A DNA stretch of 64,000 nucleotides from Mesorhizobium shangrilense (GTDB lineage: Bacteria; Pseudomonadota; Alphaproteobacteria; Rhizobiales; Rhizobiaceae), in the NCBI RefSeq assembly GCF_028826155.1, contig NZ_JAQGPN010000001.1, forward strand, positions 1,431,501 through 1,495,500, in the 5' to 3' direction. Each line of letters begins with the position of its first letter. The stretch's first letter is position 1. This document shows, piece after piece, positions 1 through 9,077 of this stretch. The translations under genes were made by a program, and so were the position numbers. The notes below the pieces were generated by a model, which searched no databases, had not been told where the DNA came from, and saw only the letters and a program-made list of their open reading frames with translations.

Positions 1-386
1 GCGAAATCCGGGAAGTTCGGGTCGAACCGCTCGAAGTGGTCCTCGTCGATCACGCGGAAGGAGACCGGGATAGTGTCGAACAGGATGGTGTCGGAGCAAC
101 TGAGCAGTGCGGTCATGCGATCGCCGTCGGCCTTGGTGCGCTGTGCTGTGCAGGATGCGTTCGGACCGCTGATCTTGTTGCCGGCGATGATGATGCCCGT
201 TGTAACCGAGCCTCCCTTGTCGACGAACTCCACGCCGTTGCCGGTCTTGCGGAAGGTCTGGTCGCACTCGGTGCCTTCCATGGTCCACGCGCCCTGCAGT
301 TCGTCGAGCGTCGCGGCGAGCACCGGATAGACGGCCGCGCCCGCCATCACTGCAACAACGGCCGCAACAATTCTTCGAGGTAGCAT
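1..386 (-). CDS. Secreted protein of unknown function (3' end outside window)
   Basis: The reverse strand reads an open frame from an ATG at 386 to the window edge, so the C-terminus is missing. The protein starts with a basic, hydrophobic signal peptide (MLPRRIVAAVVAVMAG, with a likely cut after VLA near residue 24), followed by a small soluble domain with two visible cysteines (ECDQ and ASCTA) and phrases such as GAWTMEGTECDQTF that recall small periplasmic beta-barrel proteins. An in-frame ATG at 392 is possible, but the purine-rich AGAGG lies about 6 nt before 386. A copy of the TGTAACCGT-type motif lies about 80 nt upstream. I do not recognise the family. The frame is judged coding from its signal peptide and continuous length. 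Confidence 0.7.
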   Translation of the reverse strand, partial: MLPRRIVAAVVAVMAGAAVYPVLAATLDELQGAWTMEGTECDQTFRKTGNGVEFVDKGGSVTTGIIIAGNKISGPNASCTAQRTKADGDRMTALLSCSDTILFDTIPVSFRVIDEDHFERFDPNFPDF

Positions 387-469: not shown

Positions 470-485
470 ACGATACGGTTACGAG
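470..485 (-). promoter_or_regulatory. GTAACCGTA-type operator-like motif, copy a
   Basis: On the reverse strand the site reads CGTAACCGTATCGTAG. It shares the core GTAACCGTA and a following CGT with the copies at 598-616 and 6419-6437. It points toward the secreted-protein gene, whose start lies about 80 nt downstream. It is the most divergent of the four copies. Confidence 0.45.
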
Positions 486-597
486 GCGCATCGATCATGC
501 GTGGAGATCGCCTTTCTATCGATCCCTGCGATGCGAGGTCGGGCGCGGAGTACGGGCGAACAGCTGGCGCAACGTCCGCACCAACTCCATGGCGGCA

Positions 598-616
598 ATG
601 TAACCGTTACGTACTG
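598..616 (+). promoter_or_regulatory. GTAACCGTTACG operator-like motif, copy b
   Basis: The sequence ATGTAACCGTTACGTACTG differs at only two of 19 positions from the reverse-strand copy at 6419-6437. It contains two tandem GTWAC units (GTAAC-C-GTTAC). It lies about 130 nt upstream of the FGE start codon in the same orientation. A binding site for a winged-helix regulator, perhaps the one encoded at 4221-5936, is an inference. Confidence 0.55.
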
Positions 617-748
617 TGATTTCGGCCGCCCTGGGACGAACGTGGGCGCAGCAGGCAGCCATCCTGTCGCTCCACAGTCGAGGTGTTGCATGAGTTCGGC
701 GACCGAGGACGCATCCACCAGGTTGATCGTCGCCTCGCGAGGCTGGTC

Positions 749-1732
749 ATGAACAAGCCGATGCGAAACCCAGTCGGCCACGCCGCGGAGCATGACGGGC
801 CGACTGGGCTGGCGTTCATTCCGGGCGGCGACTTCACCATGGGCTCGGACGCGCACTATCGCGAGGAAGCGCCTGCCCACAGGGTCCACGTCGACGATTT
901 CCTGATCGACATAGCGCCGGTGACCAACCGCAAGTTCAAGGAGTTCGTCAAGGACACCGGCTATGTGACCCTAGCCGAGCGCACACCCGACGCGAAGGAT
1001 TATCCCGGAGCGCTTCCGGAGATGCTGTTCGCCGGTTCCATGGTGTTCCAGAAATCATCGGGACCGGTCGATCTGGGCAACCCCAACAACTGGTGGGATT
1101 TTGTCCGGGGCGCCAATTGGCGGCATCCGGCTGGCGCGAACAGCGGGCTGTTCAAGCGCGACGCCCACCCGGTCGTGCATGTCGCCTACGAGGATGCGCT
1201 GGCCTATGCCCAGTGGGCCGGCAAGGACCTGCCGACCGAGGCCGAATGGGAATACGCGGCGCGCGGTGGGCTCGACGCCGCCGAATACGCCTGGGGCGAC
1301 GAGTTCGCGCCCGGCGGCCGGCAGATGGCCAACACCTGGCAGGGAGCGTTCCCCCACGAGAACCTGCTGGCCGACGGCTTCGAGCGGACTTCGCCGGCCG
1401 GGACGTTTCCGCCGAACGGTTACGGCCTCCACGACATGATCGGCAATGTCTGGGAATGGACCTCCGACTGGTGGAGCGACGGCCACACGGCCGACCCTGC
1501 CAGCCCGTGCTGCATTCCGCGCAACCCGCGGGGGGCGGACGAGGCGGGGAGCCATGATCCGCGCCTGCCCGGAATCCGCATACCCCGCAAGGTGATCAAG
1601 GGCGGTTCGCATCTCTGCGCGCCGAACTATTGCCGGCGCTACCGCCCGGCGGCGCGCCATGCGCATCCCGTCGACACGTCGACCAGCCATCTCGGATTCC
1701 GCTGCGTCATGAGGAAACGGTCGGGAATATGA
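749..1732 (+). CDS. Formylglycine-generating enzyme (FGE/SUMF1 family)
   Basis: This 327-residue protein matches the FGE-sulfatase fold throughout: FIPGGDFTMGSD near residues 24-34, an ERTPDAKD segment near 78, the LPTEAEWEYAARGG block at 161-174, GNVWEWTSDWW at 232-242, and the C-terminal GGSHLCAPNYCRRYRP. The last segment keeps both cysteines (290 and 295) that bind copper and catalyse oxidation of a sulfatase Cys to formylglycine in true FGEs. Related iron- or lectin-type paralogues lack this pair. No signal peptide is visible, so it likely acts in the cytoplasm. The start at 749 follows a GAGG about 7 nt upstream; an in-frame start at 683 would add 22 residues. No sulfatase gene lies in the window. 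Confidence 0.9.
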   Translation: MNKPMRNPVGHAAEHDGPTGLAFIPGGDFTMGSDAHYREEAPAHRVHVDDFLIDIAPVTNRKFKEFVKDTGYVTLAERTPDAKDYPGALPEMLFAGSMVFQKSSGPVDLGNPNNWWDFVRGANWRHPAGANSGLFKRDAHPVVHVAYEDALAYAQWAGKDLPTEAEWEYAARGGLDAAEYAWGDEFAPGGRQMANTWQGAFPHENLLADGFERTSPAGTFPPNGYGLHDMIGNVWEWTSDWWSDGHTADPASPCCIPRNPRGADEAGSHDPRLPGIRIPRKVIKGGSHLCAPNYCRRYRPAARHAHPVDTSTSHLGFRCVMRKRSGI

Positions 1733-1774
1733 ACGAAGAGCGACCATGCCGCATCGCACACGCGATGAACCCGG

Positions 1775-2035
1775 TTGGCCGGGGCTTTGGCGGCGCTGCT
1801 GCTCCGGGTCGGTGTTTCCACGCACGGCCTCTCGTTCGAAGTCCAGCAGCGCTTGTGGGACGACATTCTTGGCCGGCTTCACGGGCCGATGACGTCCCGC
1901 CTCTTCCTGCAGCCCGGCCTGGCGTTTCTCGTCGCCCTGTTCAAGGAATACCCGCCGGCCCAGCATACGGGCAGCTTCACCGTAGAGGATGTGCACGCGT
2001 CGATCAGCTCCGCGGCGAGCGGCGCAAACCAGTGA
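1775..2035 (+). pseudogene. Short membrane-protein-like ORF, probably truncated or frameshifted
   Basis: A TTG-initiated 86-residue frame begins right after a stop codon and encodes a hydrophobic start (AGALAALLLRVGV), then RLWDDILGRLHGPMTSRLFLQPGLAFLVALFKEY. The RLWDDI..RLxGPM..RLxLQP pattern resembles small proteobacterial membrane proteins that normally begin with a few polar residues and continue further after this helix. An ATG in another frame at 1746 (MPHRTRDEP) would supply such a start if one base were shifted near 1770. I read this as a decayed or shortened family member. The resemblance is recalled from memory and not verified. Confidence 0.4.
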
Positions 2036-2102
2036 CCGGGCGGTTGCGGGCGGGTGGAAGTTGCCGTCCGCTCACACTCTAAGAGAGGCAGGAGAGATTC
2101 TC

Positions 2103-2690
2103 ATGGCAAACACTGAAACAATCCGTCCCCCGCTTGACGGGCGTCCAATGCTTCATGCCCTGGCGAGGAACTGGTGGCTCCTCATGCTGCGAGGCATCTG
2201 CGCCGTGCTGTTTGGCGTCCTGACCTTCGTCTGGCCGGGGATTACGCTCATCACTCTGGTGCTGCTCTACGGTGCCTATGCTTTCGCCGACGGCGTGTTC
2301 TCGCTGTTCGCCGCGATCACGGGCGGAACACCGGCGCCGCGCTGGTGGCTGGCTGTGGTCGGCTTGCTCGGCATCGGGGCGGGGCTGGTGACGCTGTTTT
2401 GGCCGGGCATGACGGCGCTGCTGCTGCTGTTCTTCATCGCCTTCTGGTCGATCGCCATCGGTGTCATGGAGATCATTGGCGCGATCCGCCTGCGCAAGGA
2501 GATCGACAATGAATGGTGGCTGGTCGCGAGCGGCGCCCTGTCCGTGATCTTCGGCGCCATCCTGCTGTTCCGCCCCGGGGCCGGGGCGCTTGGACTGATC
2601 CTCGTCATCGGCGTCTTTGCGTTGATCCACGGCGTCATGCTGATCTCGTTCGCGCTACGCCTGCGGGGCCACAAGCATGCCGAGGCCTGA
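2103..2690 (+). CDS. hdeD: HdeD-family (DUF308) membrane protein
   Basis: The 195-residue protein has six predicted hydrophobic helices arranged as three repeated pairs, with the typical HdeD phrases GVLTFVWPGITLITLVLLYGAYA and WWLVASGALSVIFGAILLFRPGAG. In enterobacteria HdeD is an inner-membrane acid-resistance protein at high cell density; in rhizobia the role is mostly unknown. The ATG at 2103 follows an AGGAGAG ribosome binding site about 8 nt upstream, which decides against longer in-frame starts. The gene stands alone on the plus strand after the FGE gene and the ORF remnant. No motif copy was seen in front of it. Confidence 0.88.
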   Translation: MANTETIRPPLDGRPMLHALARNWWLLMLRGICAVLFGVLTFVWPGITLITLVLLYGAYAFADGVFSLFAAITGGTPAPRWWLAVVGLLGIGAGLVTLFWPGMTALLLLFFIAFWSIAIGVMEIIGAIRLRKEIDNEWWLVASGALSVIFGAILLFRPGAGALGLILVIGVFALIHGVMLISFALRLRGHKHAEA

Positions 2691-3042
2691 CCCGGCAGGC
2701 GGCGCGCTTTTCCCGGGGAAGGCCGGGCCGGCAAAGTGCTTTGCCTTCCATCCCACCGATGCCCCCGGGAAGAGAGGAAGGAACGGCTCGTCCTTGCAAC
2801 GGATCACGCCGTCTTCGTCATCGCGCTGATGGCGCTGGTCGTCATCGCGGCCGGAACCCGGAAGCGTGACCTCGCGGACGTGCGCGAGCGACAGCGCGCG
2901 GGGACGGAACAGCCGCCTGCCGTGCCGTAGTGTCGCCTCCGGCGAGCAGCTTGCCGAGCAATTCCACATTAGGCGGTGAACGTGGGCCAGCAGTCAATCG
3001 TGGGGCGGCCGAAGCCTGCCTTGCCCGATTTCCGGCCGCTCA
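2691..3042. other. Intergenic region between convergent hdeD and HAD genes
   Basis: This roughly 350-bp gap has no gene I can support. A 64-codon frame (2736-2930) contains one hydrophobic stretch (HAVFVIALMALVVIAAG) but lacks a clear ribosome binding site and sits in high-GC sequence where such frames are common. No terminator hairpin with a T-run is evident. Confidence 0.5.
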
Positions 3043-4050
3043 TCAGCCGGGAAACACGGATCTCCAATCCTGCTTCATGTCGACGAGAACCCAGCCCTTG
3101 GCCTTCGCCTCGTTAAGCGCCTTGTCAAGCCTGCCCACCGACGAGTCGCGGTCATAGGCATACTCGCGCTCCGCGTCAGTATGATGGACGATGCCCGCAA
3201 AGCGCGCTCCCTCACCGGCCGCGGTCCACTGCAGCATCTCCAGATCGCCATCCGAATTGCCGAAGGCGAAGATCGGACGCCGTCCGATGAAGCGGTTGAT
3301 GCCAACCGGCTTTCCGGGCCCGTCGTCCACGAACTCGACCTTTGCCTCCTTGATCAGACGAGGCGTTCCATCGGGACCCGTTTCGAACCTGACCACGCCG
3401 GACGACCCGATCACCTGTTCGGGCGGGATCCCGTATGTCTTCTCCGCGAACACGCGCATGAACTCGACGCCCCCGCCCGACACGATGAACGTCTTGAACG
3501 CGTTCGCCCGCAGATACGCCAAAAGCTCCAGCATCGGCTGGTAGACCAGTTCGGTGTAGGGGCGATTGAAGCGCTTGTCGCGAGCGGTCGCCAACCAGTC
3601 GGTCACGGCATCGGCGAACGCATCCGTCGTCATGCCGGCGTGCGTGGCCGCCATGATCTCCATCAACCCCTTCTGGCCGCTCGCCAGGAGCGCCTCGTTG
3701 TCGCCCTTCATCACCGCCTCGAAGGGCTCCTTGCCCCTCCACTCGGGATGCTCGGGGGCCAGCGCCTTCACACGGTCAAGAGCGAACACCAGTTGCGTAT
3801 AGGCCGGCTTTTCGAGCCAGAGCGTCCCATCGTTGTCGAAGACGGCGATGCGTTCGGCGGGCGCGACATGGTCAGGCGACCCGTCGCGAACGACACGTTC
3901 GACAAACTCGAGGATGGATTGCCTGGCCGTACCCTCGTTCCAGGAGGGCAGGGGGTCCGATTGGGCCTGGGCCCGCCGATCGAGACGGAACACAACGCCG
4001 GTAGCCAAGAGGGATTTGAGGAACTGTCGCCGACCAAGTCGCAGGAGCAT
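3043..4050 (-). CDS. Exported HAD-superfamily phosphatase
   Basis: The 335-residue protein opens with a twin-arginine-like leader (GRRQFLKSLLATGVVF), so export to the periplasm is likely. HAD motif I is FDNDGTLW (Asp72 and Asp74), motif II is in FIVSGGG, and motif IV is FGNSDGDLEML. This is the phosphoserine-phosphatase-like branch of the HAD family. The substrate is unknown. The start at 4050 has a GAGGTG site about 6 nt upstream; a longer frame to 4131 lacks one. A copy of the repeated motif lies 64 nt upstream (4114-4130), linking the gene to the FGE and regulator genes. It is transcribed convergently to hdeD. Confidence 0.85.
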   Translation of the reverse strand: MLLRLGRRQFLKSLLATGVVFRLDRRAQAQSDPLPSWNEGTARQSILEFVERVVRDGSPDHVAPAERIAVFDNDGTLWLEKPAYTQLVFALDRVKALAPEHPEWRGKEPFEAVMKGDNEALLASGQKGLMEIMAATHAGMTTDAFADAVTDWLATARDKRFNRPYTELVYQPMLELLAYLRANAFKTFIVSGGGVEFMRVFAEKTYGIPPEQVIGSSGVVRFETGPDGTPRLIKEAKVEFVDDGPGKPVGINRFIGRRPIFAFGNSDGDLEMLQWTAAGEGARFAGIVHHTDAEREYAYDRDSSVGRLDKALNEAKAKGWVLVDMKQDWRSVFPG

Positions 4051-4113
4051 CTCGCACCTCGTTCGCGGACTTCGATTGCTTGTGCAATCTTGGTGCGAAG
4101 GCGAGCCCGTCGA

Positions 4114-4130
4114 AGTACGTAACTGTAACA
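4114..4130 (-). promoter_or_regulatory. GTTACAGTTACGTAC operator-like motif, copy c
   Basis: The reverse strand reads TGTTACAGTTACGTACT and matches copy b at 15 of 17 positions. It again has two GTTAC units one base apart. It points toward the HAD phosphatase gene and lies 64 nt before its start codon. Confidence 0.5.
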
Positions 4131-4220
4131 ATTGCGCAGGTCGCAGCTTCGGAATGCCGAAACCGGGCCCTCGAGGGGCTCACCCGCGCGTCTGACCTCG
4201 GCAAGCCAGTCCGGATGCGG

Positions 4221-5936
4221 TCAGATGCCGATGCCTGCCTTGGCGAGGCCGGCCGCCAACATCGAAACGAGAGAAGGCGTATACTGTCGCTGGTTGAGGT
4301 CTTTGCGCGCCCTTGACTGGAAGTTGGGCTGCTCCCGCTCTATGACCTCGATTTCACGCAAGGCATCCGGCACGCGATCAAGTTGAGCCAGCGTGGCGGC
4401 CTTGAGAATATGGCGGACATAGCAATCTCTGGGCTCCGACTGCTCGAGCCGCAGAAGCGCTTCCGTGAAAGAGCCCAGGCGATAGGCATTGAAGGCCAGC
4501 GTGCCTTGAACTGCCGCGGTAGGCGGATAGCCCGACTGCTCTGCGCTCATCACAAGCGCGATGCCCTCGTCCCACCGTCCGAGTATGAAGAGAATGCGAC
4601 CCAATTCCGCCTTGGCGACCGGATTGTAGGGGTTCAACTCGAGCGCACGCCGGCCGGCAGCGATCGCAGCTTCGTGATGCCCGATACGAAACTGCGCCAA
4701 CATCTGGGCAATCTGGCTGCGGTCCACGTCGGGCGCGAGGGCCATCGCCCGGGCGGCGCTCTCGCCCGCGCTCTCGGCGAGGTAGGCGGATCTCTCCCGT
4801 GGCTCCTGCTTCAACAGGACGATAGCCAGCATGGCATGCGCGTCGGCGTCGGCCGGCCTCAGCTGCAGTGTCTTCCGGAGGCAAGTCTGCGCCTCGTTCA
4901 ACAATTCGGCCGATCCAGAGTCCACTGCCTGCAAGCTGCGCACAGTGCAGCCGTTGCCCAGGGAGGGGTGGGTGCGTTCCTCTTGCGCCTCCAACTGGTT
5001 GATCACGCCTTGCGCAGAGGCCAACCTTGCCGCAAGCCTCGTCCCGAGTTCGTTGGGCGTTGCACCCGCGTCGGGCAGCGTCGCTGCATGCTCCTCGCCC
5101 GCCTGCATCACCGTTCCGCGGCCGCGGTTCACGATCTGCCAGTAGACCGATCTGTGCCCGTCCATGACACGGTACTTCAGGGAAAGCGCATACCGGCTTC
5201 TCGTCGTCATTGGCAGAGCCGCTGTGGCGGAACCGGTGGCCAGCTGCGGGGGAACGTCTCGCAGAGCCTCGATCTGGACGGTGCGGAAGCGTGACAGAGC
5301 GATGGTGAGGGTGTCGCGAAACTGCCCGGCTTCGTCGCTGAGGGGAGCGGCAACGTCTTCCATCTCGATCGCCAGGCTCGGCCTTTCGCGAATGGCAGCC
5401 CTCTCATCGGGACCGGAAGGCCAGTTCACCCATGCCAACAGGGCCATCAGAAACCCTGCGGCGAAAGACCAGAGAGCGAGCCGACGTTGCGGTCGCTGCG
5501 GGCCGGCCAACTGCGCCGCGGAGTTCGGGGCAGATGCAGCGCGTTCCGACTGCTCCGTCGCCTCCGGTGCGTGGAAAACGGGTATGTAGTGGCCCTTCGG
5601 AAGCTCGATCCGGATCCGTCCCTCCTTGTCCTGACGGGCATAGTACTGACTGAGGGCTGCACGAAGACGGGTCGCCTCTATCCGAACGATGGGGTCGGTG
5701 ACAGGGTCGAAGCTGCTGGCGCGGCCGAACACGTCGACGGCGATGGCATAAGCCTTGATGGATCTTTGACGCCCTTCGAGCGTCGCTTCGGCGACAAAGC
5801 GCAGGAAACGCTTGTTGCGATCGGTGCAGGCAAAGTCGGGATCAGCAATCAGGCGGTCGAGCTCCGCCCTGGCTTCCTGCTCGGAAACCGCTTCCGCGGG
5901 AGACGCAACTTCCTTCGACCACCCCTCAGAATGCAT
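4221..5936 (-). CDS. Membrane-anchored winged-helix-like regulator with TPR domain (CadC/ToxR-like layout)
   Basis: This 571-residue protein has three parts. Residues about 20-121 (ARAELDRLIADPDF...DRNKRFLRFVAE...DPIVRIEATRLRAAL...LPKGHYIPVF) form the N-terminal domain common in rhizobial TPR/adenylate-cyclase-like regulators; its closing hairpin recalls an OmpR-type winged helix. One membrane helix follows at about 153-172. The remainder is presumably periplasmic and contains TPR-like helices from about 360 to 520 (AMALAPDVD, RALELNPYNPVAKAELGRILF). DNA binding across a single membrane helix is an inference from this layout. The start at 5936 has GAGGG 7 nt upstream. The gene is probably co-transcribed with the small gene at 6038-6301, whose promoter region holds motif copy d. 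Confidence 0.75.
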   Translation of the reverse strand: MHSEGWSKEVASPAEAVSEQEARAELDRLIADPDFACTDRNKRFLRFVAEATLEGRQRSIKAYAIAVDVFGRASSFDPVTDPIVRIEATRLRAALSQYYARQDKEGRIRIELPKGHYIPVFHAPEATEQSERAASAPNSAAQLAGPQRPQRRLALWSFAAGFLMALLAWVNWPSGPDERAAIRERPSLAIEMEDVAAPLSDEAGQFRDTLTIALSRFRTVQIEALRDVPPQLATGSATAALPMTTRSRYALSLKYRVMDGHRSVYWQIVNRGRGTVMQAGEEHAATLPDAGATPNELGTRLAARLASAQGVINQLEAQEERTHPSLGNGCTVRSLQAVDSGSAELLNEAQTCLRKTLQLRPADADAHAMLAIVLLKQEPRERSAYLAESAGESAARAMALAPDVDRSQIAQMLAQFRIGHHEAAIAAGRRALELNPYNPVAKAELGRILFILGRWDEGIALVMSAEQSGYPPTAAVQGTLAFNAYRLGSFTEALLRLEQSEPRDCYVRHILKAATLAQLDRVPDALREIEVIEREQPNFQSRARKDLNQRQYTPSLVSMLAAGLAKAGIGI

Positions 5937-6037
5937 GGCAAGCCCTCAACTTGCCTCCACGCCCCAAACGCTGCTCGCGTAAGGGTAGCACGCCCCGCCC
6001 GCCACTTCTAGGGCGAGGCGATCGGGCGAGCGCGGCC

Positions 6038-6301
6038 CTACCGTGTGTTCATGCACAGCGCGATGATGTCATCCTCAATCTCCCGGCACAGAACCTCATA
6101 CTCGACTATGGATTCCGGCGGCGCTGTCCCGGCAGACTTCCTCAAACTCTCCAGGGTGGAGCTCGCTTCTTCGAAGGCGCCACACAGGCTGCGCAGATCT
6201 TCGCTTCGTGCACTGAGCAATTGCAGCTCGCCGCGCAGGGCAGGCATCTTGAGCATGAGCCTGATCAGCCCTCGGCGGCTTGTTCCTGCGTCAGTTGACA
6301 T
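6038..6301 (-). CDS. Small helical protein of unknown function
   Basis: An 87-residue frame from ATG 6301 reads MSTDAGTSRRGLIRLMLKMP and continues with amphipathic helices (ELQLLSARSEDLRSLCGAFEEAS, SIVEYEVLCREIEDDIIALC). It carries three cysteines and no membrane segment. An upstream TTG at 6328 is possible but less likely. It sits 101 nt before the membrane-regulator gene on the same strand, so the two may form an operon. I do not recognise the family; a partner of the regulator is only a guess. Confidence 0.6.
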   Translation of the reverse strand: MSTDAGTSRRGLIRLMLKMPALRGELQLLSARSEDLRSLCGAFEEASSTLESLRKSAGTAPPESIVEYEVLCREIEDDIIALCMNTR

Positions 6302-6418
6302 TGTTTGCTCGCGGCGGACTGAGAGCAACGAGTGGCCGAGGGTTGTTACCCTTCGGCGGTGCCTGGCCCATGCGCTGGCTTTTCAGCGCCAGATATTCGC
6401 TTCATTTTTGGCTTAGGC

Positions 6419-6437
6419 CAGCACGTTACGGTTACAT
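6419..6437 (-). promoter_or_regulatory. GTAACCGTAACG operator-like motif, copy d
   Basis: The reverse strand reads ATGTAACCGTAACGTGCTG, 17 of 19 identical to copy b. It faces the small gene and regulator pair and lies about 118 nt before ATG 6301, so the regulator could control its own operon. Confidence 0.55.
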
Positions 6438-6496: not shown

Positions 6497-7306
6497 CTAT
6501 CGAACGCCCTGCGCCTTCAGCGCGCCAAGCTTCGCATCGAGGCTCTCGCGCGAAATCTCGCCCAGATGAACGTTGGAGAGCATCCCGTCGCCATCGATGA
6601 ACAGCGTCGCGGGAAGTCCCGGAACGTTGTAATGCCGACCCAGTTCGCCCAGCCGGTCGAGAAGGGCTACCGGCAGGTCCAGCCCCTCCTTGTCGAGATA
6701 GGCAGTGACCCGGCCGGCGTCCTCGCCCTGATTGGCGAAGATGAACGAGACGTCCCGGACCTCGTGCGAGTAGGCCTCCAGCATGGGCATTTCGCGACGG
6801 CACGGGGGGCACCAGGATGCCCAGAGGTTGATGATCATGGGCCGGCCGATGCTGTCGGTCAGTTTGATCGGGTCTGCCGACAGGGCCTGGAACCGAGTGT
6901 CCGGGAGCGCAACCGGTTCGACCGCAGAGGTCAGCTGATCGGCGACGTTCCAGATGAACAAACCTGCAGCGACAGGCGCCAGCGCCGCCAGCCTCGCCTG
7001 CGCGCCGCGCAGGAAAAGCGGTATCGCGGCGAGCGCGACCAGCAGGCCGAATGGCCAGAAGAAGCCGCCCTGCCAGACTGCGAAGGCGCGCAGGGGCTCA
7101 TCCTTGAAGCTGTCCCAATGGATCGCGACATGGCCGACGCGGGCCGCCACTATCCCCGCCACAAGCGCCCAGAACGACCATCGCCTGATGTCGGGGTCGA
7201 CGCGGCGCGCCAGCATCCCCGCCACGAGCGTGAACGCGAAGATGCCGATCAGCGCGGCGGCGCGATCCGCCGCGAGCATCAGGGGGCCTACGGATATCGC
7301 GTTCAT
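6497..7306 (-). CDS. TlpA-type membrane-tethered thioredoxin with Lgt-like membrane domain
   Basis: The 269-residue protein has about four N-terminal membrane helices (residues about 8-32, 45-63, 82-99, 106-122) resembling the prolipoprotein diacylglyceryl transferase fold. A periplasmic thioredoxin domain follows with the redox motif WCPPC (Cys166 and Cys169), preceded by IINLWAS and followed by the cis-Pro segment GLPATLFIDGDG. It likely reduces or oxidises envelope disulfides, receiving electrons from DsbD encoded just upstream. The start ATG 7306 overlaps the dsbD region (dsbD stop at 7308-7310), a sign of translational coupling; a GTG at 7315 is the alternative. Confidence 0.88.
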   Translation of the reverse strand: MNAISVGPLMLAADRAAALIGIFAFTLVAGMLARRVDPDIRRWSFWALVAGIVAARVGHVAIHWDSFKDEPLRAFAVWQGGFFWPFGLLVALAAIPLFLRGAQARLAALAPVAAGLFIWNVADQLTSAVEPVALPDTRFQALSADPIKLTDSIGRPMIINLWASWCPPCRREMPMLEAYSHEVRDVSFIFANQGEDAGRVTAYLDKEGLDLPVALLDRLGELGRHYNVPGLPATLFIDGDGMLSNVHLGEISRESLDAKLGALKAQGVR

Positions 7307-7307
7307 G

Positions 7308-9077
7308 TCACCCACCCTTGGCCGCGGACGTCACCAGTGAATCGACGTCGATCGTGCCGATGAGACGCGTGCCCTCGATCTCGCGCTTGTCGCCATGGAA
7401 GAACACCATTGACGGGGGCCCCGCCACGCGCAGCGCCTTCATCAGCTCCTCACGCCTGGGGTCGAGCTCCGTGATGTCGACTTTGACGAGGCGGTACGAC
7501 GCGAGGGCCTCTTCGATACGCGGATCGGGCAGGACGGAACGCTCTATCTTCCGGCAGATGACGCACCAATCGGCCGTGAAGTACACCATCAGGGGCCGCT
7601 TCTGGCCATCGGGATCGTCGAAGCGGGCCAGGAGGTCGGGCAGGGTGGCGACCTCTTCGAAGGCGAGCGCGGATTTGCTCTGGGGAGGGGACTTCAGCAC
7701 GATCCGCGCCTGCGCCTGAAAGGGCCGGTCGCCTCCGGATGCCGCAGTCAGCCCCATGACGGCGGCGTAGACGGAAAACACGCCGGCCGTCGCGCGCAAG
7801 GCGCGCCGACGCCAGCCCTTCGCCGCGCGGCCGAGAAGCCAGCCGGCGGCGGCGATCAGGAGCAACGCCCAGAGCACGGATAGGACGACATCGGACAGGA
7901 GCGGGGATGCGAGCCAGATCGCGACGCCCAGAAAGGCGAAGCCGAACGCCTTCTTGACGCTCTCCATCCACGCTCCGGCGCGCGGCAGAAGATGACCGCC
8001 GAAGCCGGCCAGTGCGATCAGCGGTAGGCCCTTGCCCAATCCGAGAGCGAAAAGCGCGGCCGCGCCGAGCTTCCAGTCGCCTCCCTGCGCGACATAGATG
8101 AGCGCTCCGGCAAGCGGTGCGGTGACGCAGGGCCCGACGATCAGTGCCGAGGAAAAGCCGAGGGCCGCGGCCGAGGTGATCGAGCCGCGCCCGGCGTTCC
8201 TGCCGGCGAAACGGGATGTCCAGGCGGACGGCAGCTGGAGCTCGAACAGGCCGAACATGGAGAGCGCCAGCAGGACCAGGATGGCTGCGCTGGCGGCGGT
8301 CGTCCATGGCGACTGGAGCGCGATCTGCATGTTGTGGCCGCTCCATGCCACGATGGCGCCGACCAGCGCGAAGGCGAAGGCGAGGGCGACGACATAGACG
8401 GAGGCCAGCGTGAAGCCCCGCGCCGCGGTCAGGCTCTCGCCCTGACGGCCAAGCATGCCGGCGACGATCGGATACATCGGCAGCACGCATGGCGTGAACG
8501 CCAGCAGCAGCCCGAAACCGAGAAAGCCTGCGATCACCCACGGATAGGCGCCGTCGGCGAGCAGCCTGGCAGCGCCGCCCTGATCCTCGGCAAGTATCAG
8601 CCCGGAATCGGCGGCTTCAACGGGCGGCGGCGCGTCCTGCGCCGGCGTCGACCACGCCACCGTCGGTCCGGCGTCCGAAATCGCAAGCGTCGCCGGATCG
8701 ACCTGGCGCGTCTCCGGCCGATAGCAGATGCCGTCTTCCTGGCATCCCTGATAGGTGACCTTCAGGGGCTGCGCGACCGGACCGGCGATCGCGACGCGTG
8801 CTTGCCTGTAGATGACCTCGACCGATCCGAAACTCGGATCGTCCTTCACCTCGCCTCGTGACGAGGTAAAGGGAACCGGCTCTGCGGCGTGCACCTCGAA
8901 GTGATCGCGATAGAGGTAGTAGCCGTCGGCGATCTCCCATCTGAGTTCGATGCCGTCGCCGCCGCGCACCGCCGTCATGCGGAATGCGTCGTCGGCGGCA
9001 AGCGGCTCGGCGCTGGACGCCACCGAGAGAGCCATCAGCGCCAGAAGCGCGGAAACGAACCCGACTATCGCCTTCAT
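7308..9077 (-). CDS. dsbD: Thiol:disulfide interchange protein DsbD
   Basis: The 589-residue protein has all three DsbD modules: a signal peptide (about 1-22), an N-terminal alpha domain with the cysteine pair in YQGCQEDGICY, a central multi-helix membrane domain starting near FLGFGLLLAFTPCVLPMYPI and including IVGPCVTAPLAGAL, and a C-terminal thioredoxin domain with WCVIC (Cys505 and Cys508). It passes electrons from cytoplasmic thioredoxin to periplasmic proteins. It forms an operon with the TlpA-like gene. A perfect CTTAAG-N5-CTTAAG box lies 52 nt upstream, in the gap shared with the two-component genes. Confidence 0.95.
   Translation of the reverse strand: MKAIVGFVSALLALMALSVASSAEPLAADDAFRMTAVRGGDGIELRWEIADGYYLYRDHFEVHAAEPVPFTSSRGEVKDDPSFGSVEVIYRQARVAIAGPVAQPLKVTYQGCQEDGICYRPETRQVDPATLAISDAGPTVAWSTPAQDAPPPVEAADSGLILAEDQGGAARLLADGAYPWVIAGFLGFGLLLAFTPCVLPMYPIVAGMLGRQGESLTAARGFTLASVYVVALAFAFALVGAIVAWSGHNMQIALQSPWTTAASAAILVLLALSMFGLFELQLPSAWTSRFAGRNAGRGSITSAAALGFSSALIVGPCVTAPLAGALIYVAQGGDWKLGAAALFALGLGKGLPLIALAGFGGHLLPRAGAWMESVKKAFGFAFLGVAIWLASPLLSDVVLSVLWALLLIAAAGWLLGRAAKGWRRRALRATAGVFSVYAAVMGLTAASGGDRPFQAQARIVLKSPPQSKSALAFEEVATLPDLLARFDDPDGQKRPLMVYFTADWCVICRKIERSVLPDPRIEEALASYRLVKVDITELDPRREELMKALRVAGPPSMVFFHGDKREIEGTRLIGTIDVDSLVTSAAKGG

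Follow-up and report, generated by a model that had tools for sequence, protein, structure and literature searches.

Winged-helix regulators of the OmpR/PhoB family bind tandem direct-repeat operators near -35, and the HilA-type and SARP-type regulators, which are soluble and join a winged helix to a TPR or BTAD part, also use direct-repeat sites near -35. CadC of E. coli binds TTAxxxxT in AT-rich DNA (PMC5430869), and a Shinella paper about a formylglycine sulfatase names a LysR-type regulator (PMC11500405). In the literature covered, with subscription papers mostly outside it, we found no shared regulator or operator for FGE and sulfatase genes, no description of a regulon like the one below and none of DUF1254 together with DUF1214. 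One of the motif strings occurs in 13 papers, and the 12 titles listed for these are on unrelated subjects. Here we analyze a 64,000-nucleotide stretch of Mesorhizobium shangrilense (the window; contig NZ_JAQGPN010000001.1, G000:C1:1431501-1495500, G000 being its own 5.5 Mb genome), in which four short tandem-repeat sites precede genes for a secreted protein, an FGE, a HAD hydrolase, and a small protein followed by a candidate regulator. We consider it quite probable that these sites are the operators of one regulon controlled, by class-II activation, by the CadC/ToxR-like protein encoded at 4221-5936. The locus shares families PF03781 and PF00884 with described FGE/type I sulfatase systems, while its 17-bp operator, placed over a predicted -35 region, differs from the CadC site given above.

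The motif, TGTWACNGTWACGTRCT, consists of three tandem GTWAC-like units, and in a 17-letter frame copies b, c and d match it with 0 mismatches (Table 1). Copy b differs from d, and likewise from c, at 2 of 17 letters; this agrees with the identities counted in a sequence-only reading of this DNA, which had located the four copies correctly. The 18-mer of that reading, at up to 3 mismatches, has 3 matches in the window against 0.02 expected, and of the 6 places where the genome has TGTAACNGTWACGTR at up to 1 mismatch, 3 fall within this stretch. As had also been proposed, the window holds no further copy at up to 2 mismatches, and every copy points toward a gene 64 to 134 bp away: about 80 bp for copy a (secreted protein, start ATG 386), 68 or 134 bp for copy b (FGE, start GTG 683 or ATG 749), 64 bp for copy c (HAD gene) and 119 bp for copy d (small protein, start ATG 6301 picked by homology). 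The grouping of all four sites as one motif holds fully for b, c and d and less well for copy a, which has 4 of 17 mismatches to TGTWACNGTWACGTRCT and 2 of 15 in a shorter pattern; because the genome has 15 matches at up to 2 mismatches compared with 58 for a reversed control, copy a does not rise above background by its letters alone. It is backed by position, the homologue of the secreted protein in genome G036 having a perfect copy 67 bp upstream.

Nor is the motif scattered at random: the own genome has 4 exact occurrences of TWACNGTWACGTRCTY, and of 397 genomes of the order 391 have none (present in 6). Among 199 genomes of the family, exact counts are 4 in G000, 6 in G036, 3 in G494, 8 in G561, 5 in G465, 8 in G543, 5 in G032 and 4 in G575, with a single occurrence in 8 others and zero in 183. 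When up to 6 candidate regulators were scored per genome, a relative of at least 248 bits was found in exactly the 8 genomes with 3-8 exact matches, the other 191 having 0 or 1; the next best score, 194 bits, comes from a genome without sites. At least 3 sites together with a close regulator thus occur in 8/8 versus 0/191 genomes (Fisher 2e-14, or 2e-13 with genome G480 counted against, neither value correcting for shared descent), which supports the regulon suggested by the sequence-only reading. That the four short sequences resemble one another by chance is next to impossible and is refuted for copies b, c and d: only copy a falls within background, no genome lacking a close regulator relative reaches 3 exact matches, and the gene types preceded by sites are repeatedly the same.

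At the class level, 6 of 385 genomes have any match, and only the own genome has more than one. The exact pattern GTAACNGTWACGTR is present in 4 of 101 genomes (own included), with 3 copies within 6 kb in G036, where the closest regulator relative among 61 genomes searched is also found (43% identity, nearly full length); the three same-genus genomes contain neither a motif copy nor anything matching the winged-helix part. A scan with two regulators, the window's and that of G036, gave 80 loci, and those with full-length orthologues mostly carry the motif (Rhizobium, Ensifer/Sinorhizobium, Ochrobactrum and other Rhizobiales), whereas loci with Devosia-type family members do not. Behind 42 of these 80 loci stand 41 genomes: 23 have no match, and each of the other 18 has 2-17 (124 in total, a count that includes overlaps on both strands and two G975 matches at one place; reversed control, 0 in the 18). 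The motif set extends to about two dozen related genomes. Of 16 genomes that contain just one exact match, G288, G512, G577 and G872 show it 76-155 bp from the first aligned residue of a regulator-family gene, and in three of these four the site also fronts a small protein aligning loosely with the window's (in G577, a near copy of such a protein).

A single operator for the whole regulator family was rejected, since the 20 genomes reached via Devosia-type or other distant members have 0 exact matches; no site precedes any of the 946 unlabelled genes of loci with such members. A drifted form, TGTWACNGTWACNNNCT, occurs in three of the 23 match-free genomes, 12 times in the one behind L094, 5 times in that behind L112 and twice in that behind Bosea locus L101, compared with 0 in ten control genomes, of which six contain the reversed pattern once. 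Where a gene could be called, drifted copies also precede FGE, small-protein and outer-membrane-type genes. Within those genomes, then, the operator has changed in concert. In a tree of 78 of the 93 labelled regulators, selected by length and domain (L086, L097, L100, L101, L103 and L160 are absent), a supported 25-row clade includes the window's protein. In 20 of its rows a site (at most one mismatch over 15 letters) lies within 10 kb; of the other 5, three belong to G036 and G494, whose sites are elsewhere in the genome, and two (L094, L112) have drifted sites. On the other side of the tree, 2 of 51 rows have a one-mismatch match; Devosia loci L152 and L155 are labelled as motif-bearing in the tree by a one-mismatch match alone, with 0 exact matches in their genomes. 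As a separate observation, genome G590 of the same class yields 62 matches to the regulator profile (contamination 7%), many covering the TPR part only.

Removal of duplicates left 65 of 68 sites, 61 of them with full flanks and none of these the false-frame site L160_20168. Their matrix reads GTWAC N GTWAC GTACT, then T, about 20 little-conserved letters, A at +40 and T at +44; the third unit (GTRCT), the fixed -10-like element downstream and the larger regulon described below are additions to the sequence-only reading. A simple two-unit palindrome was rejected, the third unit being about as conserved as the first two. After 5 further near-duplicates were dropped, 48% of the 56 non-redundant sites have A-N3-T at +40 and 30% have it at +39 (some at both), against an all-offset mean of 6%, and none of 5000 shifted sets reached 48%. 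The corresponding values are 47% and 20% in 30 additional sites, and 32% and 26% in the 19 drifted sites, where one unrelated offset gives 21%. All four window copies have A-N3-T at +39 or +40. One own-genome site (L064:4924-4944; G000:C1:984925), which separates a putative outer-membrane-protein gene from a divergent gene, is nearly as good on both strands, TGTAACAGTAACATG / TGTTACTGTTACATG.

If A-N3-T is the -10 hexamer, the site centre would lie near -43 and its 3' end over -35, where the letters are CTTCC. This fixed distance suggests an operator over the -35 region of the class-II activator type and would account for the common direction of the sites; by comparison with established promoter architecture, the geometry fits class-II activation. 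A protein at -35 could also block polymerase, and autoregulation would be compatible with either sign of control, but a spacing to the -10-like element held to about 1 bp across genes and genomes is required by activation and not by repression, and CTTCC is poor against the sigma70 consensus. Repression by the 4221-5936 protein covering the -35 region therefore seems to us decidedly unlikely. The sites are directional and upstream of genes, and -35 elements of ECF sigma factor promoters often contain AAC; the conserved block of 17-18 contiguous letters is nevertheless too long for a -35 box, no second conserved box follows 16-17 bp on, and the next conserved letters are the sigma70-like A-N3-T at +39..+44. 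An ECF promoter, already highly improbable on these grounds, was rejected for lack of conservation at +20 to +30.

The fairest count of targets comes from the first 27 loci, which were fetched by regulator with none omitted and whose genes were labelled by homology; a target has a site with at most 2/17 mismatches, at most 300 bp upstream and pointing to the gene. Sites precede 8/9 FGE genes and 13/15 small-protein genes, showing that the motif is kept at orthologous promoters in relatives as the regulon idea of the sequence-only reading requires, as well as 5/13 sulfatase, 4/10 SH3, 2/4 MoxR, 3/8 outer-membrane-type (four families) and 1/13 DUF1254 genes. None was found before HAD (0/7), secreted-protein (0/1) or regulator genes (0/31), the last of which follow the small-protein gene, and many site-less labelled genes are second in an operon. 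Among unlabelled genes, 4/394 in these loci and 4/1254 over all 80 loci have a site. A mixed set, consisting of the window, 22 loci picked after the motif had been seen and 19 stretches fetched for sites or regulator (seeds being genes behind sites, and L236 and L089 coming from one genome, G561 = G967), agrees with 12/15 FGE, 19/22 small-protein, 15/29 sulfatase and 7/573 other genes, and contains no labelled gene with an outward copy as its only copy. In a seed-free 10-mer count of the regions upstream of 35 genes for FGE or the small protein, none of them from the window, the commonest words, GTAACGTACT and its overlaps, occur in 17 regions versus a maximum of 4 in 20 resampled sets. Genes preceded by sites elsewhere in the own genome code for a PF00884 sulfatase (L063), a DUF1254/DUF1214 protein (L243), a putative outer-membrane protein lacking a Pfam match (L064) and a PF13578 methyltransferase (L065).

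The candidate regulator, until now annotated only as a repeat protein, has a predicted N-terminal winged helix of OmpR/PhoB type, with PrrA, SaeR, GlnR and PhoB among the first rows of the comparison. It does not match PF00486 (Trans_reg_C) in Pfam-A at E ≤ 0.01, no fold could be assigned to the winged helix with confidence by Foldseek, and a PDB sequence profile search gave no result. A membrane helix is predicted after the winged helix in 23/24 rows, the window's protein included (19-residue hydropathy 1.75-2.71), and two cysteines (330, 352) of the TPR sensor are conserved in 23/24 relatives. For the sensor part, Foldseek places CadC periplasmic entries at ranks 2-5 at a root-mean-square deviation of about 18, in a list otherwise made of TPR arrays. 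By predicted fold and topology the protein would be a variant of the CadC kind and may work like a CadC-type activator, although unlike CadC it has no Pfam winged-helix match, a TPR sensor, a larger regulon and cysteines at other places. OmpR/PhoB response regulators share the predicted DNA-binding fold; here, however, there is no receiver domain, and the DNA-binding domain is N-terminal and membrane-anchored. A winged helix plus a TPR-like part is common to this protein and the HilA/SARP layout, and the NCBIfam HilA/EilA model matches the G036 protein weakly (E 0.018). The own genome also encodes a paralogue (G000:C1:4086318-4087916; 45% in the winged helix) 3.7 kb from a second small-protein homologue (4091617-4091790), a locus (L062) with no window-operator copy at up to 2 mismatches.

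Most likely, one membrane-anchored sensor switches on sulfatase and envelope genes. The 4221-5936 protein would be a CadC/ToxR-like one-component regulator with a cytoplasmic winged helix, one membrane helix and a periplasmic sensor made of the alpha/beta part and TPRs, in which cysteines 330 and 352 probably form a switchable disulfide. It would bind TGTWACNGTWACGTRCT, with unit starts 6 and 5 bp apart, over -35 and about 21 bp upstream of the -10-like hexamer, and recruit RNA polymerase in class-II fashion. Its targets would be its own operon (small protein and regulator), the FGE maturase and type I sulfatases, and further some HAD, DUF1254/DUF1214, outer-membrane-type, SH3 and MoxR proteins.

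The small protein precedes the regulator in many orthologous loci, behind the operator, and 15/29 of its matches have a listed regulator-family gene, often a divergent one, at most 5 kb away, marking it as a possible partner protein. In the 199 family genomes its strongest matches fall in 9, the 8 motif genomes and G480, with a tenth in G340, which has no exact site. It has no convincing Pfam match; the weak ones include one to a BldD-like C-terminal domain, whose E value of 0.078 falls well short of the cut-off. Distant small proteins of SLCEEY type in other genera and families (L248, L249, L245) also stand behind a single operator copy.

Several observations weigh against this account. Copy a is weak on its own, and of two secreted-protein homologues one, in Bosea locus L101, has no copy before it. 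Two of the four other own-genome sites lack A-N3-T at +39/+40. The L097 regulator (L097:9595-11094), an intact 499-residue frame in a locus with operators, has neither the membrane helix (hydropathy 1.12) nor the cysteines; it is possibly a natural soluble form, and is nearer the HilA/SARP layout. Finally, G480 has an FGE, the small protein, an outer-membrane protein, MscS, an aquaporin and several operator copies (cluster L321, G480:C1:84000-103999; variants TGTAACNGTWACATRCT), and no winged-helix regulator of this family was found in its genome: either the regulator is absent from the assembly or replaced, or its assignment is incomplete. G480, the tracking of the motif genomes by the small protein and the BldD-like match would all suit a regulon whose real operators are bound by another factor, the small protein or an unlinked regulator, with the TPR protein as a member or modulator. 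We regard this as unlikely: co-occurrence is to be expected of the small protein, which itself sits behind the operator, the regulators of two of the three drifted-operator genomes (L094, L112) form their own branch, and in four single-match genomes the site lies close to a regulator-family gene. Assignment to the 4221-5936 protein is strong but unproven.

More tentatively, and with rather less confidence than doubt, these proteins may belong to a large unrecognised family of membrane-anchored activators with a winged helix for which no curated profile exists; they would often be paired with a small helical partner protein, and those that have names go under TPR protein, TadD, adenylate cyclase or hypothetical; the present branch would read periplasmic thiol state through its two cysteines and couple it to formylglycine sulfatases and their maturase. 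Proteins annotated as TPR or hypothetical would become predicted transcription activators, with an operator supplied for one branch. The conserved regulon unites FGE and sulfatases with the functionally uncharacterised DUF1254/DUF1214 proteins, giving genes of unknown function a shared context, and the operator with its drifted version offers a ready test of DNA reading by this winged helix.

Table 1. Operator copies and genes at the start of the window (window coordinates)
Feature	Position	Strand	Remarks
Operator copy a (weak)	483-467	-	CGTAACCGTATCGTAGC; faces secreted protein; -10-like A-N3-T at +39/+43
Operator copy b	599-615	+	TGTAACCGTTACGTACT; faces FGE; -10-like A-N3-T at +40/+44
Operator copy c	4130-4114	-	TGTTACAGTTACGTACT; faces HAD hydrolase; -10-like A-N3-T at +40/+44
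Operator copy d	6436-6420	-	TGTAACCGTAACGTGCT; faces small protein + regulator operon; -10-like A-N3-T at +39/+43
Small secreted protein	1..386	-	extends beyond window start; no Pfam family
FGE-type sulfatase-modifying enzyme	683..1732	+	PF03781, E 2.9e-82; contains LCAPNYCRRYRPAAR
DUF308 membrane protein	2103..2690	+	3' of FGE; no own operator seen
HAD hydrolase	3043..4050	-	PF12710; twin-arginine-like signal RRQFLK
Candidate regulator, 571 aa	4221..5936	-	predicted winged helix (19-125), membrane helix (153-171), alpha/beta + TPR part
Winged-helix domain of regulator, residues 19-125	5562..5882	-	unmatched by any Pfam or NCBIfam model
Small helical protein, 5' of regulator	6038..6301	-	ATG 6301 by homology; helical by sequence look

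The FGE gene product has both the PF03781 profile and paired cysteines in LCAPNYCRRYRPAAR (LCAPNYC in its sequence), the two-cysteine active-site motif, and the DUF308 protein is HdeD-like. Directly before the small protein and regulator operon, the region 6497-9077 (-) encodes a thioredoxin-like protein with an LGT-like membrane part (by Pfam) and a gene that looks DsbD-like, of interest beside the two conserved cysteines of the regulator.

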